NCBI GenBank assembly: GCA_013298995.1
Contig: JAAFJW010000011.1
Location: 1-39,505 of the forward strand
Length of the DNA: 39,505 nucleotides
Direction: 5' to 3'
Source of the DNA: Sphingobacteriales bacterium
GTDB taxonomy: Bacteria; Bacteroidota; Bacteroidia; Sphingobacteriales; Sphingobacteriaceae
In this document: piece by piece, positions 34,281-39,505 of the stretch
Numbering within the stretch: position 1 is the first letter of the stretch
Layout: every line of letters begins with the position of its first letter
Made by a program: the position numbers and the translations under genes
Notes under the pieces: generated by a model
Databases searched by the model: none
The model's input: the letters and a program-made list of their open reading frames with translations, nothing else
Told to the model about the DNA's origin: nothing

Positions 34281-34862
34281 TTACCCCAAAATCACTATTG
34301 CCAAGCTACGTGGTCCATGTGCACCCAATACCAGCGATTGCTCTATATCGGCAGTTTTGGATGGCCCAGCTATAAAAGTACCAAAGGCGTAATTTGCGGT
34401 GCCAATTTTATCGTAGGCTTGGTGCATATTTTGTAAAATATCGGTTTTGTTTATCAACAGCATTAAATGCTGGCAAATAAATGGCGATACCCGCTTGCCT
34501 AGCAATTCTTCGGTTACCCATATTGCACTGTTTTCGGCTACGCCAAAGTGTGCTTTAAAAACGCCTAGCTCTACATCCTCTAAGGTATGTGCATCTAAAT
34601 CGGCAAAATCGGTTTCGGCAACATCGCTAAGTTCGGCCATGGGCGATATTATCCTGCCCACAGAAAAATTACTGTGTATTAATTGTTTAACTTCGGAAAT
34701 CCCGCCAAGGAAATGTACTGTACTGCCTATACCTTTGGCTGTTGCTACAAATAAATCTAAATTATTGGAGCCTTGGGGCGAGAATGGCTCAAAAACTGGC
34801 ATGGGTAAAATAGCGGGTTGGTTGGCCAATACGGCGGCTAATATTTGTGCTCTACTGCTCAT
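34281..34862 (-). CDS. lutC: LUD-domain L-lactate utilisation protein LutC
   Basis: LutC is the third subunit of the LutABC complex that oxidises L-lactate to pyruvate in the cytoplasm. The start at 34862 gives 193 residues beginning MSSRAQILAAVLANQPAILP; the frame extends to 34913, but that part lies inside lutB. The LUD fold is visible in LDLFVATAKGIGSTVHFL, VGVAENSAIWVTE-like sequence in the middle, and the C-terminal VLGAHGPRSLAIVIL. Its first 11 bp overlap the end of lutB. The stop lies 22 bp from the broken end of IS3 copy A, so the gene is intact but has lost any native downstream context. Confidence 0.9.
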   Translation of the reverse strand: MSSRAQILAAVLANQPAILPMPVFEPFSPQGSNNLDLFVATAKGIGSTVHFLGGISEVKQLIHSNFSVGRIISPMAELSDVAETDFADLDAHTLEDVELGVFKAHFGVAENSAIWVTEELLGKRVSPFICQHLMLLINKTDILQNMHQAYDKIGTANYAFGTFIAGPSKTADIEQSLVLGAHGPRSLAIVILG

Positions 34863-36237
34863 TATTGTTTCTGTTTTTTTGGTACCATTCGCCAAACGAT
34901 GCTGTGGGTACATCGGGCATATCGCGTTGTTTGTACCAAGGGTTAAATTTATTGTTTACTGTAAATGGGGCGTATTTTAAAACTATCCTACCCATTTTAC
35001 CCGCTGCGTGATACGCAAAAGGCGACGAAAGGGTAAAGGCCATCATTTTCATACTTAATGCTTTGGCTTTGGGTGCGTAGCCGTTTTGTACAATTACTTG
35101 TCGCCATTTATACAATTGCTGGTGAATATCTATTTTAACGGGGCATACATTGGTGCAACTGCCACACAGGGTGGATGCAAAAGGCAAGTCGGCGTATTTT
35201 TCCATATCCAAATTTGGGGCTAAAATTGCCCCAATTGGCCCAGTAATGGCGTAATGGTAACTGTGGCCACCACTACGGCGATAAACTGGACAGGTATTCA
35301 TGCAAGCACCACAGCGGATACATTTTAGCGAGTTTCTAAAATCCGCCCGACCCAATTGTTTTGTTCGTCCGTTATCCACCAATATAATGTGCATTTCTTG
35401 GTTTTCTCTGGGCTTTTTAAAATGGCTTGAGTAGGTGGTAATAGGTTGTCCAGTTGCGCTTCGGGCTAGCAGGCGTAAAAAAACGCCTAAATCTTTACGT
35501 TCGGGGATAATTTTTTCGATACCCATACAGGCTATGTGTACATCGGCAAGGTGTGCGCCCATATCGGCATTGCCCTCGTTGGTACAAACCACAAATTCGC
35601 CAGTTTCGGCTACGGCAAAATTTATCCCGGTAACGGTAGCCTTGCGAGATAAAAACGTTTCACGCAGGTGGTGCCTGGCTGCTTCGGTTAATAATTGTGG
35701 GTCGCTATTGCCTTGGGGTGTGCCCAAATGTTTGTGAAAAAGCTCGCCAATTTCTTCTTTCTTTTTATGTATGCAGGGCAGCACAATGTGGCTTGGTGGT
35801 TCTTCGGCCAGTTGTACAATGCGTTCGCCCAAGTCCGAGTCTATTACATCAACGCCGTTATCGGCCAAAAAATCGTTTAAATGGCATTCTTCGGTAAGCA
35901 TCGATTTGCTTTTAACCAGCTTGTTTATTTCTTTGCTACGCAAAATATTTAACACAATTTGGTTATGCTCGGCAGCGTTGGCAGCCCAGTGTACGGTAAT
36001 GCCGTTGGCAATGGCGTTTGCCTCAAACTGTAACAAATAAGGATTTAGGTTTGATAAAACGTGGTCTTTAATGTTGGATGCGGCATCACGCAACAGTTCC
36101 CAATCGGGTACTTGCCAAGCAATTTTATCTCGTTTCTCACGTATCCACCACAGGGTATCGTCATGCCAACCTACACGTTTTTCGTCTATGTTAAAATCAT
36201 CGGCAAGTGTAGCGTGGTCTTTTGGTGTTTGTATCAT
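34852..36237 (-). CDS. lutB: Iron-sulfur L-lactate utilisation protein LutB
   Basis: LutB has a LUD domain (about 50-295, with ADVHIACMGIEKIIPE) and a ferredoxin-like region with the cluster motifs C306-X2-C309-X2-C312-X3-CP (317) and C358-X2-C361-X3-CP (366). It passes electrons between the lactate-oxidising site and the acceptor. The 461-residue length is usual. The start directly follows the lutA stop with no gap, and the end overlaps lutC, so the three are tightly coupled. No lactate permease or LutR-type regulator is next to them. Confidence 0.96.
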   Translation of the reverse strand: MIQTPKDHATLADDFNIDEKRVGWHDDTLWWIREKRDKIAWQVPDWELLRDAASNIKDHVLSNLNPYLLQFEANAIANGITVHWAANAAEHNQIVLNILRSKEINKLVKSKSMLTEECHLNDFLADNGVDVIDSDLGERIVQLAEEPPSHIVLPCIHKKKEEIGELFHKHLGTPQGNSDPQLLTEAARHHLRETFLSRKATVTGINFAVAETGEFVVCTNEGNADMGAHLADVHIACMGIEKIIPERKDLGVFLRLLARSATGQPITTYSSHFKKPRENQEMHIILVDNGRTKQLGRADFRNSLKCIRCGACMNTCPVYRRSGGHSYHYAITGPIGAILAPNLDMEKYADLPFASTLCGSCTNVCPVKIDIHQQLYKWRQVIVQNGYAPKAKALSMKMMAFTLSSPFAYHAAGKMGRIVLKYAPFTVNNKFNPWYKQRDMPDVPTASFGEWYQKNRNNNEQ

Positions 36238-36969
36238 TTAGCTTGCGTTTAAAATTTCGGCAATGTGTATTACTTTGGTTTTACTGTTTTTTCTTTTTAG
36301 GATGCCTTCGAGGTGCATTAGGCATGATAAATCAACACCTGTAATGTATTCGGCACCATTATTTTCGTGGTCGGCAACACGGTCTTTACCCATTTTGGCC
36401 GATACAGCCTCCTCGGCAACGCAAAACGTACCGCCAAAACCGCAACATTCGTCTTTGCGTTTTAGGTTAATCATTTCTAAGTTTTGCACCATGTTTAATA
36501 ATCTTTGCGGTTTAGAGTAGGGGGCGGCTACCAATTCGCTCATTTGTGCTAAATGTAAACCTCGCTGCCCGTGGCAACTTTGGTGTAAACCTACTTTGTA
36601 CGGAAAATTTGCGCTAAGCGTGGTAACTTTTAACACATCGGTTAAAAATTCGGTAAGTTCGTAAATTTTGTTGCTTATGTTTTTGTCATCTTCGTGATTT
36701 GAAGTGTGAATATGCTCTTTTATGTGCAATACGCAACTGCCCGATGGGGCAACTATGTAATCGAACTGTTTAAAATTTTGAACAAATAGCTTGTTGCAAC
36801 CTGCGGTAAGGTGCTCGAAACCAGAGTTTGCCATTGGCTGGCCACAGCAGGTTTGGTTGGGTGGGTAGCTTACATCAAGCCCCATTTTTTCTAATAATTG
36901 TAAGGTTGCGATGGCGGCGTTTGGGTAAAACTGATCTACATAGCAAGGAATAAATAAGCCTACTTTCAT
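36238..36969 (-). CDS. lutA: Cysteine-rich-domain L-lactate utilisation protein LutA
   Basis: LutA carries two CCG domains that bind iron-sulfur clusters in the LutABC lactate oxidase. The start at 36969 gives 243 residues beginning MKVGLFIPCYVDQFYP, the usual family N-terminus; an ATG at 36981 adds four residues and is equally possible, while the frame open to 37041 adds an unmatched extension. Domain motifs are visible: NQTCCGQPMANSGF (about 34-47), LHQSCHGQRGLHLA (about 127-140) and KDECCGFGGTFCV (about 168-180). It is the first gene of the operon. I see no full-consensus promoter upstream; TATCTTTC (37007-37014, minus) is one base off the -7 box. Confidence 0.93.
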   Translation of the reverse strand: MKVGLFIPCYVDQFYPNAAIATLQLLEKMGLDVSYPPNQTCCGQPMANSGFEHLTAGCNKLFVQNFKQFDYIVAPSGSCVLHIKEHIHTSNHEDDKNISNKIYELTEFLTDVLKVTTLSANFPYKVGLHQSCHGQRGLHLAQMSELVAAPYSKPQRLLNMVQNLEMINLKRKDECCGFGGTFCVAEEAVSAKMGKDRVADHENNGAEYITGVDLSCLMHLEGILKRKNSKTKVIHIAEILNAS

Positions 36970-37218
36970 TTTTATATTCATCAATATTTTTGGTGTGCCT
37001 AAATTAGAAAGATAATTGTAAACCCGATGCGGTATAATCATGTTTTATTAAAATTAGCGCAATGTTTAAAAATAGTTTAAACGTAGTAGCAAAAACAGCG
37101 TTTGCTGATAATAGTTTTAGATTAAGCGGTCTTTTAAAATAAAATTTATTTTAACCTATTGAATATTAAATTTTTAACCCATGTATATAAAATTAATGTT
37201 AAAAGATGTATTAATTTA

Positions 37219-37253: not shown

Positions 37254-37340
37254 GGAGAGTTGGCAGAGCGGTCGATTGCGGCAGTCTTGAAAACTGTTGA
37301 CTTGTAACAGGGTCCTGGGGTTCGAATCCCTAACTCTCCG
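37254..37340 (+). tRNA. tRNA-Ser (anticodon UGA)
   Basis: The 87-nt gene folds into a full cloverleaf: acceptor GGAGAGT (37254-37260) pairs with ACTCTCC (37333-37339), discriminator G340 follows, anticodon stem GCAGT/ACTGT with loop CTTGAAA (anticodon TGA at 37288-37290), T arm TGGGG-TTCGAAT-CCCTA, and a long variable arm as expected for serine. It reads UCA and, by wobble, probably other UCN codons. CCA is not encoded; the next bases are CAC. It is divergent from lutA and has its own promoter and terminator, so it is a single-gene unit. Confidence 0.97.
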
Positions 37341-37357
37341 CACATAAATTAAATGGT

Positions 37358-37394: not shown

Positions 37395-37561
37395 GTGCCC
37401 TATTTTGCGATTTCAATGTGCAAAATACTAAAAAACGTTGTAGTTTCTTTATCTATAAAAGATATGTTTAACCCGAATTAGATTATTAAACTTTAAACTA
37501 ATTTACTGTTAATCAATTATTTGTTATTAATTTAAGATAGTTTTTTGTATTAAAAAAAACT

Positions 37562-37618
37562 ATGAATTGCCCAAAATGTGAAAGTTCCGAATACAATAGA
37601 GATGGAGTACCTCGGCTA
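37562..37618 (+). pseudogene. N-terminal scrap of another transposase (zinc-ribbon type)
   Basis: ATG at 37562 opens a frame reading MNCPKCESSEYNRDG before running into IS3 copy B and a stop. MNCPKC-x8-G is the usual N-terminal zinc ribbon of IS1- or IS1595-type transposases. About 14 codons survive. A 10-bp hairpin (37537-37546 with 37554-37563) overlaps its start codon. It shows that a second insertion sequence was present and was cut at the junction with IS3 copy B (about 37605). Confidence 0.6.
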
Positions 37619-37755
37619 TAATTATTTCCGCCTCATACGTTTTTTGTTGGGTGTATTTTATGCCTTGATAATATCCTTGCCTTGTGAAACCAAGAAGTAA
37701 ACAAAGGTCGTTTATACAACGTGGATTCCTTTGCCCTACTGCTTGGTGCCAGACT
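37605..37755 (-). pseudogene. IS3-family transposase OrfB, copy B, N-terminal fragment
   Basis: After -1 slippage at AAAAAAG (37754-37760) the frame reads through VWHQAVGQRNPRCINDLCLL and LGFTRQGYYQGIKYTQQKTY to AEIIIAEVL, a typical OrfB N-terminus (LxGxxRQxYY). It then hits the junction with the zinc-ribbon remnant. The whole DDE catalytic domain is missing. Confidence 0.85.
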
Positions 37756-38074
37756 TTTTTCGGATACTGATTTTTAAATCTTTCTCCGTTATATCTATCA
37801 TTGCATTTAGCAATTCTGTACGCAGCTTTTCTTTGCGTAATTCTTCTCGTAGTTGGCTTAACTCCGTGGGCATTTCAACTACTGGAAAATCTATTTCTTT
37901 GGGCTTGGTTTTCATACGCTTTTCGGGCTTGCCTTGAAAATTTACAACCCACGAATGTATCGTTCTAAAATCAATTCCGTGTTTCTCTGCTAAGGCTCGG
38001 TAGCTGCTCTTTTCTAATAAATACTCGGCTATGATGGCCTCTTTTTTCTCTAAGCTAATTTCTAATTTGTCCAT
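37736..38074 (-). CDS. IS3-family transposase OrfA, copy B
   Basis: This 112-residue OrfA has the same helix-turn-helix (about 8-50) and coiled coil (about 68-100) as copy A. Differences cluster in residues 4-10 and 38-47 and at 63-65, about 14 of 112 in all, so the two copies are separate isoforms rather than a recent duplication. It is intact but has no functional OrfB. The stem-loop TTTACAC/GTGTAAA lies just before its ATG, as in copy A. Confidence 0.92.
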   Translation of the reverse strand: MDKLEISLEKKEAIIAEYLLEKSSYRALAEKHGIDFRTIHSWVVNFQGKPEKRMKTKPKEIDFPVVEMPTELSQLREELRKEKLRTELLNAMIDITEKDLKISIRKKSGTKQ

Positions 38075-38141: not shown

Positions 38142-39227
38142 CTATTTTTCTTCTAAAATTTTCAATAACTGCTCATTTAAATACAATTTTTCCTTTCCAA
38201 CTTTTATCGATTTTAAAAAGCCGTGTTCTTCTAATGCCTGTAAATAGTTACCAACTGTTTTCGGATTACCGATATTCTCGTCAATTAAATGTTGGCGTTT
38301 TGTGTAAGGCAAACGAAACAGAATTTCAACCAAATCTTTTGAATAAATTTTGGGCAATTTTGCTTTTATTTCGTCTGCGGTTTTTGCCATTGTAGTTGTA
38401 ATTTTATTCAAACGCTCCAAGCCTTTGTTTGAGGTTTCTTCAATCATATCCAACATATACAAAATGTAATTTTCCCAATCGTTGCTTTCGGTTACACCTC
38501 TCAAACTTTTGTAATAATCGGCTTTGTGTTTGATTATGTATTCACTTAAATAAATTGCGGGTGTATCCAATAACCCCGAAATTTTTAGATACAATAACAA
38601 TAAAATTCTTCCTGTTCTACCATTACCATCTGCAAAAGGGTGAATTGCTTCAAACTGATAGTGCAATAACGCCATTTTTATCAATGGGTCAATGCTTTCA
38701 TCTTCGTTAATAAACTTTTCCAAGTTTGCCAACTTCTCACGAATTATTGACTCTCCGCTTGGTGGTGTATAAATTACTTCGCCTTTTGTGTTGCTTAATG
38801 TTGTTCCAGGTGTAACCCGAATAGAAGCCGTATTTTGTTTGATACATTGAACAATGCTAATGCAAAGATTGGTTGTAATAAATGGTTTTTTCTTTAACTG
38901 CTCCAAACCCAACCAAAGAGCCTCTTTGTAACTTAACACTTCTTTGGTAGCTGAATTTTCCACCTTTCTGTCGGCTACCAAAGATTTATAAAGTTCATCA
39001 TTTGTTGTGATTATGTTTTCAACCTCCGAACTTGCTTTTGCTTCCTGTAAATAAATCGTGTCCAAAAATAAAGTTGGATTTGGTAAGTTGAGTAAAGTTC
39101 CGTTCAGTTGAGCCAGTGCTCTACCTGCCGAAATTGTTTTACGAAGTATTTCTTTCGTTTCAATATCTGCCTTTGGCGGTAGCAAAGGCAGGTCGTTATA
39201 TGGTATTTCCTTATTGAATTTGCTCAT
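38142..39227 (-). CDS. Fic-family protein, class II (N-terminal inhibitory helix)
   Basis: Fic enzymes transfer AMP (or related groups) from nucleotides to hydroxyl side chains of target proteins. The start is ATG at 39227 (361 residues); a TTG at 39236 adds three. In the numbering from 39227 the active-site motif HPFADGNGRTGR spans 196-207, complete with the catalytic His196 and the Asp/Asn/Arg residues. The inhibitory motif (S/T)xxxE(G/N) is present upstream as SSEVEN at about 66-71, which marks a class II, self-inhibited Fic. A winged-helix-like C-terminal domain (about 295-361, LPYTKRQHLIDENIGNPKTVGNYLQALEEHGFLKSI) looks like a DNA-binding module. No antitoxin gene is adjacent. Repeated dyads upstream suggest autoregulation. 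Confidence 0.93.
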   Translation of the reverse strand: MSKFNKEIPYNDLPLLPPKADIETKEILRKTISAGRALAQLNGTLLNLPNPTLFLDTIYLQEAKASSEVENIITTNDELYKSLVADRKVENSATKEVLSYKEALWLGLEQLKKKPFITTNLCISIVQCIKQNTASIRVTPGTTLSNTKGEVIYTPPSGESIIREKLANLEKFINEDESIDPLIKMALLHYQFEAIHPFADGNGRTGRILLLLYLKISGLLDTPAIYLSEYIIKHKADYYKSLRGVTESNDWENYILYMLDMIEETSNKGLERLNKITTTMAKTADEIKAKLPKIYSKDLVEILFRLPYTKRQHLIDENIGNPKTVGNYLQALEEHGFLKSIKVGKEKLYLNEQLLKILEEK

Positions 39228-39240
39228 TTTGTTCAAGTGT

Positions 39241-39326
39241 AAATTTTACTCTCGTTTTTAACACAAGGGTAAAAATATTAAAATTTTACTCTCGTTCAAA
39301 ACATAAGAGTAAGTTTTGCCCTCGTT
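39241..39326. promoter_or_regulatory. Repeated operator-like dyads upstream of fic
   Basis: AAATTTTACTCTCGTT occurs exactly at 39241-39256 and 39281-39296 (40-bp period), with a third copy at 39311-39326 matching 13 of 16. Each of the first two is followed by an inverted partial copy (ACAAGGGTAAAAAT at 39263-39276; ATAAGAGTAAGTTTT at 39303-39317), making two imperfect dyads of about 37 bp. They begin 14 bp upstream of the fic ATG, in the position of a promoter/operator. Confidence 0.6.
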
Positions 39327-39505
39327 TGTTTTGGGTTACTTCCCCGATTTTCTTCTGTTGTCGTCTTTGCTCTTCGAGTTTCCCCCAATAGGGCCGCATT
39401 TTCCCTATAAAAAGTTTTAGAACAACTGCCCTACAAACCTACCTAAATTTTATAAAAGCATTGTTTGTTATTACTTTGCATCGTCTTTAGAACAAAACCG
39501 TTTGC
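39327..39505. other. Window edge, nothing recognised
   Basis: No gene, RNA or repeat is supported in the last 180 bp. The region is less AT-rich than most gaps and may belong to a gene outside the window. Confidence 0.4.

Follow-up and report, generated by a model that had tools for sequence, protein, structure and literature searches.

In the phd-doc type II toxin-antitoxin system, expression of a toxin with the Fic fold is held down via operator sites, and the antitoxin is the DNA-binding partner. The fic gene described here differs from this arrangement in that the toxin and a predicted DNA-binding part lie in one polypeptide. That a winged-helix Fic protein can repress itself is known from CccR of Yersinia pseudotuberculosis, a secreted effector of another Fic subfamily, which according to the available part of its description acts on its own promoter through a C-terminal HTH placed on inverted repeats (PMC9755527). 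The CccR operator consists of two 10-bp inverted repeats separated by 26 bp, whereas our locus has six half-sites with spacers of 3 and 13 bp on a 10-bp grid. CbFic2 of Coxiella burnetii is a class II Fic protein with a DNA-binding C-terminal winged helix and an activity that is changed by DNA. The accessible text on CbFic2 describes assays with random DNA, gives no known operator, and reports that the enzyme acts on host histone H3 (PMC10628234).

SoFic of Shewanella oneidensis and Sofic of E. coli are single-protein anti-phage defence systems with the same domains, and the same catalytic and inhibitory motifs, as the protein studied here. As far as the available text of the E. coli work goes, the E. 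coli protein is a dimer whose C-terminal domain is required for toxicity, and a 47-residue antitoxin, AS1, is encoded downstream of it, whereas the clade of our gene has no conserved downstream gene (PMC12249575). DNA binding by SoFic was stated to be undemonstrated in 2023, in the accessible part of PMC10628234. Among the matches listed in a search of the open-access literature, with preprints outside its scope, no publication on a SoFic operator was found, although one may exist. A self-repressing winged-helix Fic is known, then, but a SoFic operator array is apparently undescribed.

Here we describe such an array in front of a SoFic-family gene in a stretch of 39,505 nucleotides from a Sphingobacteriales bacterium (contig JAAFJW010000011.1; the whole stretch is called the window). 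From comparison of sequences, the array (39236-39322) is very probably the operator of fic, and the encoded protein its own repressor.

Results

The fic gene and its protein

Pfam Fic_N, Fic and SoFic-like_C match the window protein in this order, all above cut-off, and the PADLOC SoFic model matches it at 3.3e-111. The NCBIfam SoFic equivalog model NF046030 covers residues 4-360 (4.2e-127) with 424 bits against a cut-off of 550, and the protein is therefore regarded as a SoFic family member and not called an equivalog. Ahead of the Fic core, at residues 66-71, stands the class II inhibitory motif SSEVEN (pattern (S/T)xxxE(G/N)), and residues 196-207 form the catalytic motif HPFADGNGRTGR (pattern HxFx(D/E)GNGRxxR), in which H196, R204, R207 and most other positions are invariant across 25 aligned rows. 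An anti-phage role of the protein, by AMPylation, is putative. The family is common, with a match (E <= 1e-50) in 100 of 395 sampled genomes of the host's class.

A winged-helix-like C-terminal domain had been proposed in the preliminary description, and it is borne out by the match of Pfam SoFic-like_C (PF21248) to residues 280-354 and by the predicted structure (mean pLDDT 90.3, 25 sequences), with helices at 297-303, 311-316 and 322-334 and wing strands at 339-343 and 346-350. The recognition segment varies between winged-helix classes with different half-sites. The model agrees with Shewanella SoFic 3zcn at a TM-score of 0.95 and 41% identity; identity is 20% to 7xux, which we take to be the CccR structure, and 17% to CbFic2 8cil.

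The ATG at 39227-39225 is most likely the fic start because it is conserved in relatives; an alternative upstream TTG at 39236 falls inside the array.

Table 1. Positions of the features discussed, in window coordinates unless another locus is named; for half-sites the lower coordinate is the plus-strand start.
Feature	Coordinates	Strand	Basis
fic, SoFic family class II adenylyltransferase, 361 aa	38142..39227	-	Pfam, PADLOC, NCBIfam, motifs
C-terminal winged-helix domain, about residues 290-361	38142..38360	-	Pfam and predicted structure
Recognition segment IGNPKTVGNYLQALEEH, residues 319-335 (helix 322-334)	38223..38273	-	model and sequence
Half-site 1, AGGGCAA, distal	39316..39322	-	AGNGYAA match
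Half-site 2, AGAGTAA, inverted partner of site 1, 3-bp spacer	39306..39312	+	AGNGYAA match
Half-site 3, AGAGTAA, inside one exact 16-bp copy	39286..39292	-	AGNGYAA match and exact repeat
Half-site 4, AGGGTAA, inverted partner of site 3, 13-bp spacer	39266..39272	+	AGNGYAA match
Half-site 5, AGAGTAA, inside other exact 16-bp copy	39246..39252	-	AGNGYAA match and exact repeat
Half-site 6, AGTGTAA, inverted partner of site 5, 8 bases from ATG	39236..39242	+	AGNGYAA match
TATTTTTA, candidate -7 box, in spacer of middle dyad, overlaps site 4	39270..39277	-	sequence
TTTTG, candidate -33 box, 19 bp before -7 candidate	39297..39301	-	sequence; weakly conserved
IS3-type first ORF with degenerate continuation	37736-38074	-
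tRNA-Ser gene, adjoins IS pieces	37254-37341
E. coli fic tandem 70-bp units	L210 1367-1995

Six half-sites in front of fic

The preliminary description had reported a 16-bp sequence repeated exactly at a period of 40 bp, and both copies of this repeat (AAATTTTACTCTCGTT) are found, at 39241-39256 and 39281-39296. It had also reported a third, degenerate copy; this copy exists (about 39311-39326), but it is offset by 30 bp from its neighbour and does not continue the 40-bp step. A better unit is the half-site AGNGYAA, of which six in alternating orientation form inverted repeats directly upstream of fic (Table 1). Their start-to-start steps are 10-20-20-20-10 bp, which makes the array symmetric about its centre and places every site on one helix face; of the three dyads, two have a spacer of 3 bp and the middle one a spacer of 13 bp. 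None of 5000 dinucleotide shuffles of 39228-39368 contained six half-sites (maximum 2, mean 0.09), and a 16-bp exact repeat was reached in one of 5000. Since AGNGYAA was chosen after viewing the sequence, the independent evidence is its recurrence in relatives.

The candidate -7 box is kept as agTATTTTTaCCC in the consensus of 28 loci (conserved TATTTTT). It and the candidate -33 box are taken to be of the Bacteroidota type, from the general consensus of such promoters. The call of the -7 box is plausible, and the half-sites would then overlap the fic promoter.

When 38900-39505 was searched as DNA against its own genome, the array was not found a second time. A count of 17-bp dyads there was uninformative, with 40 forward matches, 36 with a mismatch and four exact (two in the array, one on contig C17 and one on contig C211), compared with 6 for the reversed-pattern control.

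Some 46 bp past the array a dispersed repeat begins, which extends as far as the end of the contig (39368-39505) and has 20 further matches in the genome, three of about 130 bp and 17 shorter. One pair of matches flanks a Y1 transposase gene on contig C190, presumably of the RAYT type, and the dispersed repeat may for this reason be REP-like. The closeness of this repeat, and the different neighbourhoods occupied by close relatives of array and gene, would fit an array that is itself a mobile or low-complexity element (REP-like sequence, transposon end, iteron or partition site) standing before fic by chance. We give this explanation almost no weight, since the letters of the array vary by protein class at constant spacing and none of the 139 gene-body controls of the family sample below has an array of at least three sites. 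Moreover, the 20 other matches of the dispersed repeat all start at 39361 or later and exclude the array, and a REP-like or transposon origin is rejected for it.

Directly 3' of fic lie broken insertion-sequence pieces (37550-38074). Three minus-strand genes occupy 34281-37041; the one that was scanned has a Cys-rich CCG domain, and we take them to resemble the lactate-utilisation LutABC operon.

Array and gene form the conserved unit

Fic proteins 80-95% identical to that of the window occur in many Bacteroidota records, next to mostly unrelated genes. The repeats seen in the window recur ahead of orthologous fic genes, where their absence would have refuted the preliminary description: at least three half-sites lie upstream in 41 of 42 non-redundant relatives of the same winged-helix class (class 10). 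L070 is a class-10 gene without an array. For a conservation profile, 28 loci (the window among them), whose proteins are at least 78% identical to the window's, were aligned on the middle dyad. Information content was 0.5-1.6 bit per base inside the array, 0.06-0.21 beyond it and 0.33 in the edge bin, and past the stop codon successive 10-bp bins gave 0.60, 0.24 and then about 0.1 bit (27 loci). Conservation is thus confined to array and gene, which together are the conserved unit.

No companion gene is conserved beside class-10 fic, and in the 27 loci no conserved sequence extends beyond about 20 bp past the stop codon. In a wider neighbourhood survey, for which neighbour ORFs were called mechanically and include some spurious ones, the commonest neighbour family occurred at five loci, all of class 7, and no other at more than three. 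An adjacent conserved type II antitoxin gene was not found in this survey or in the 27 class-10 downstream flanks; a non-conserved one is possible. A restriction-modification operon context is not the rule, the neighbours being mostly unrelated. The absence of a conserved companion gene is consistent with the one-gene switch, without a separate antitoxin, that had been suggested from the window sequence.

Six winged-helix classes have six words and one spacing

The family sample started from 191 loci with a match, of which 178 were full length; these gave 173 distinct proteins, 171 with a usable winged helix. Removal of those above 92% identity left 151 non-redundant proteins, which were grouped by winged-helix identity. 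Six classes of at least 11 members comprise 140 of them, or 139 after one with short upstream DNA was dropped, and for the 11 loci in small classes words were read by eye only.

In a test free of any motif, at least five copies of one 8-mer were present in 91 of 171 upstream regions (53%) versus 34 of 692 control segments (5%), and in 27 of 172 downstream regions. Taken singly, 26/171 upstream and 13/172 downstream regions scored above each of 40 shuffles of the same region, few because A+T-rich words recur by chance. The class of the window protein has the word aAACGAGgGTAAA. The others, with the proportion of loci that have an upstream array of at least three sites, are TCTTTACA in class 5 (15/30), TATGTtCA in class 2 (23/23), TCATGTA in class 6 (11/20), ACATTAAA in class 3 (12/13) and CATGTCGA in class 7 (7/11). 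One universal half-site for the family is ruled out by these six words in six classes. Arrays are present at 113 of the 139 loci, upstream at 99, on both sides at 10 and only downstream at four; by the class matrices, 26 loci have none on either side, several of which show other repeated words by eye that were not counted.

Eight class-7 genes (L013, L014, L015, L017, L018, L113, L114 and L115) have an array shortly past the stop codon, and six of the eight also carry an upstream array with identical word and spacing. L158, a class-3 relative with helix AEKTA in place of AENTA, has by eye the repeated word ACCGTTTA and not ACATTAAA.

The spacing is shared. There are 337 pairs of sites in the same orientation at distances of 14-60 bp; of these, 316 are at 29-31 or 40-42 bp, where 43 would be expected if spacing were uniform, and these distances account for at least 88% of such pairs in every class.

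To a large extent the word can be used to tell the protein class. In a leave-one-out analysis, in which own-class members with more than 70% protein identity to the left-out locus were removed from training, the word assigned the correct class at 102 of 139 loci, whereas 10,000 permutations gave a mean of 29 and at most 49. Correct calls were 42/42 in class 10, 20/30 in class 5, 22/23 in class 2, 12/13 in class 3, 5/20 in class 6, which mixes subwords, and 1/11 in class 7, where nine loci were called class 2, whose word ATGTTCA resembles ATGTCGA, and five had only three training loci. A z above 3 was reached by 97 of 139 own-class scores versus 35 of 695 other-class scores. L123 is a misfit: despite its AKRQ helix it has one class-7 site upstream but four sites resembling class 2, and its downstream words resemble those of classes 5/6; L118 likewise stands outside the pattern.

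Winged-helix and Fic-domain identities are strongly correlated (r = 0.86). A gene is passed on together with the DNA in front of it, and a common phylogeny may account for some of the match between word and helix; discordant cases are few. Shared descent thus explains part of the agreement. That it explains all of it, with the array retained merely by linkage, we consider very improbable: even where the protein shares 78% identity or more with that of the window, flanks beyond the array are unconserved, and the words persist both after removal of training members above 70% identity and in other phyla. The best discordant case points the same way, as L217, with helix SRPTATKY, has the class-5 word (z 6.0), whereas L218, its nearest Fic domain (73% identity), has helix SRQTAARY and by eye a different repeated word.

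Other phyla, paralogues and E. coli

Outside the training set, 29 extra loci were scored: one from E. coli, 19 from plasmids and nine from viral contigs (L211-L219, among 80 viral-contig loci). Thirteen of them have the helix A(K/Q)RQxA (10 from Pseudomonadota and three from viral contigs with host unassigned, several closely related), and all 13 scored highest with the class-7 matrix, that is, with the word ATGTCGA learned in Bacteroidota (z 4.2-6.9 upstream in 12; 2.6 upstream and 3.4 downstream in L212). L213, with helix AKHQ, reached only 1.7 with class 7 and 4.2 with class 5, its best. L211 follows class 10 (z 7.8), L207 and L217 follow class 5 (z 5.2 and 6.0), and L206 has the class-5 word downstream (z 4.9). 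For eleven of the 29, most of which have RQTAA-type helices, every class matrix fits poorly (best z 1.2-3.9), and several of these show a repeated word of their own by eye. On the alphaproteobacterial plasmids L203, L292 and L293 a recombinase gene lies 3' of fic with a 4-bp overlap.

Paralogues within one genome also have different arrays. In the window genome, the window fic has six class-10 sites upstream, and its paralogue on contig 1 (L036) has six class-3 and no class-10 sites within 200 bp, and ten class-3 sites within 300 bp. Among 37 genes in 18 genomes with paralogues, arrays, where present, match the gene's own class; several genes (e.g., L129, L132, L135, L140, L150 and L164) have two sites or fewer of any class.

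The E. coli SoFic gene also has an array of class-7 words. In strain DA33133, whose Fic C-terminus is the same as in the solved E. coli protein 9vjc, 18 class-7 half-sites precede fic in a 629-bp intergenic stretch of 7.4 tandem 70-bp units, with five stray ones in the remainder of the 5-kb locus. A fic match is present in 278 of 5426 E. coli genomes. Among the matches listed (60 of 234 genomes), four carry this region shorter by exactly 140 bp, and one of them, AVS0973 (L301), has 14 sites with the first 200 Fic residues unchanged. The 140-bp difference and the 18 versus 14 sites indicate a change in copy number by two whole 70-bp units.

Alternatively, the array could be read by an unlinked regulator common to the hosts, with the Fic winged helix serving another role, such as positioning the catalytic domain. 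The available text on E. coli SoFic speaks in its favour: there toxicity depends on the C-terminal domain, which touches the catalytic one, and conservation of the C-terminal domain alone therefore does not require DNA binding (PMC12249575). We still find an unlinked regulator improbable, because different Fic winged-helix classes have different words, both in the paralogues of the window genome and in other phyla, because array and fic travel together beside mostly unrelated genes, and because the DNA search of the window genome gave no further array. Because word and winged-helix class agree across most of the family, Fic itself is the probable reader of these sites, an idea already put forward in the preliminary description and supported by this comparison.

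Discussion

Our reading of the array as the fic operator, and of Fic as repressor of its own gene, implies that Fic dimers would dock through their C-terminal winged helices on half-sites along one helix face. With Fic bound, the promoter between sites 3 and 4 would be shielded, and the adenylyltransferase, an enzyme potentially toxic to its own cell, would be made at a low level until infection releases the repression. The word and the first part of the recognition helix would have changed jointly in each lineage, whereas the spacing, being dictated by how the protein assembles, would have been kept. In this scheme we infer that Fic binds, that dimers occupy the sites, where the promoter lies, and that repression occurs and is lifted on infection.

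At the loci with arrays only downstream (four) or on both sides (10) simple promoter repression would not be sufficient. It may be that the array is a store or scaffold for Fic dimers, in which DNA occupancy sets enzyme activity and promoter repression is secondary. Arrays past the stop codon in 14 of 139 loci would fit such a function, as would a site number far above that of a simple operator (the 18 sites before E. coli fic), and DNA binding has been proposed to switch CbFic2 from AMPylation to deAMPylation in the accessible part of PMC10628234. However, CbFic2 belongs to a different Fic subfamily and was assayed with random DNA (PMC10628234), and in the window six sites sit close together over the probable promoter, an arrangement for which repression alone can account. 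We regard the scaffold function as doubtful, though with a real chance of being correct.

A further idea, though an unlikely one, is that the array is itself the antitoxin. SoFic dimers would be held inactive on their own iterated DNA, and breakdown or remodelling of host DNA by a phage would both free and derepress Fic, whose AMPylation would then abort the infection. Iterated half-sites number six here and 14-18 in the two E. coli strains, and arrays lie on both sides of fic in some loci. If true, a DNA sequence would be inhibitor and phage sensor at once in a one-gene defence system.

Returning to the array as operator of its own fic gene, these arrays offer a direct test of the role of the winged helix and of what keeps this family quiet in healthy cells. 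With one word for each of the six helix classes, and a common spacing rule, they hint at a natural recognition code. Such a code predicts the operators of other members of the family: Shewanella SoFic, with helix AKRQTASVYLK, should bind ATGTCGA.
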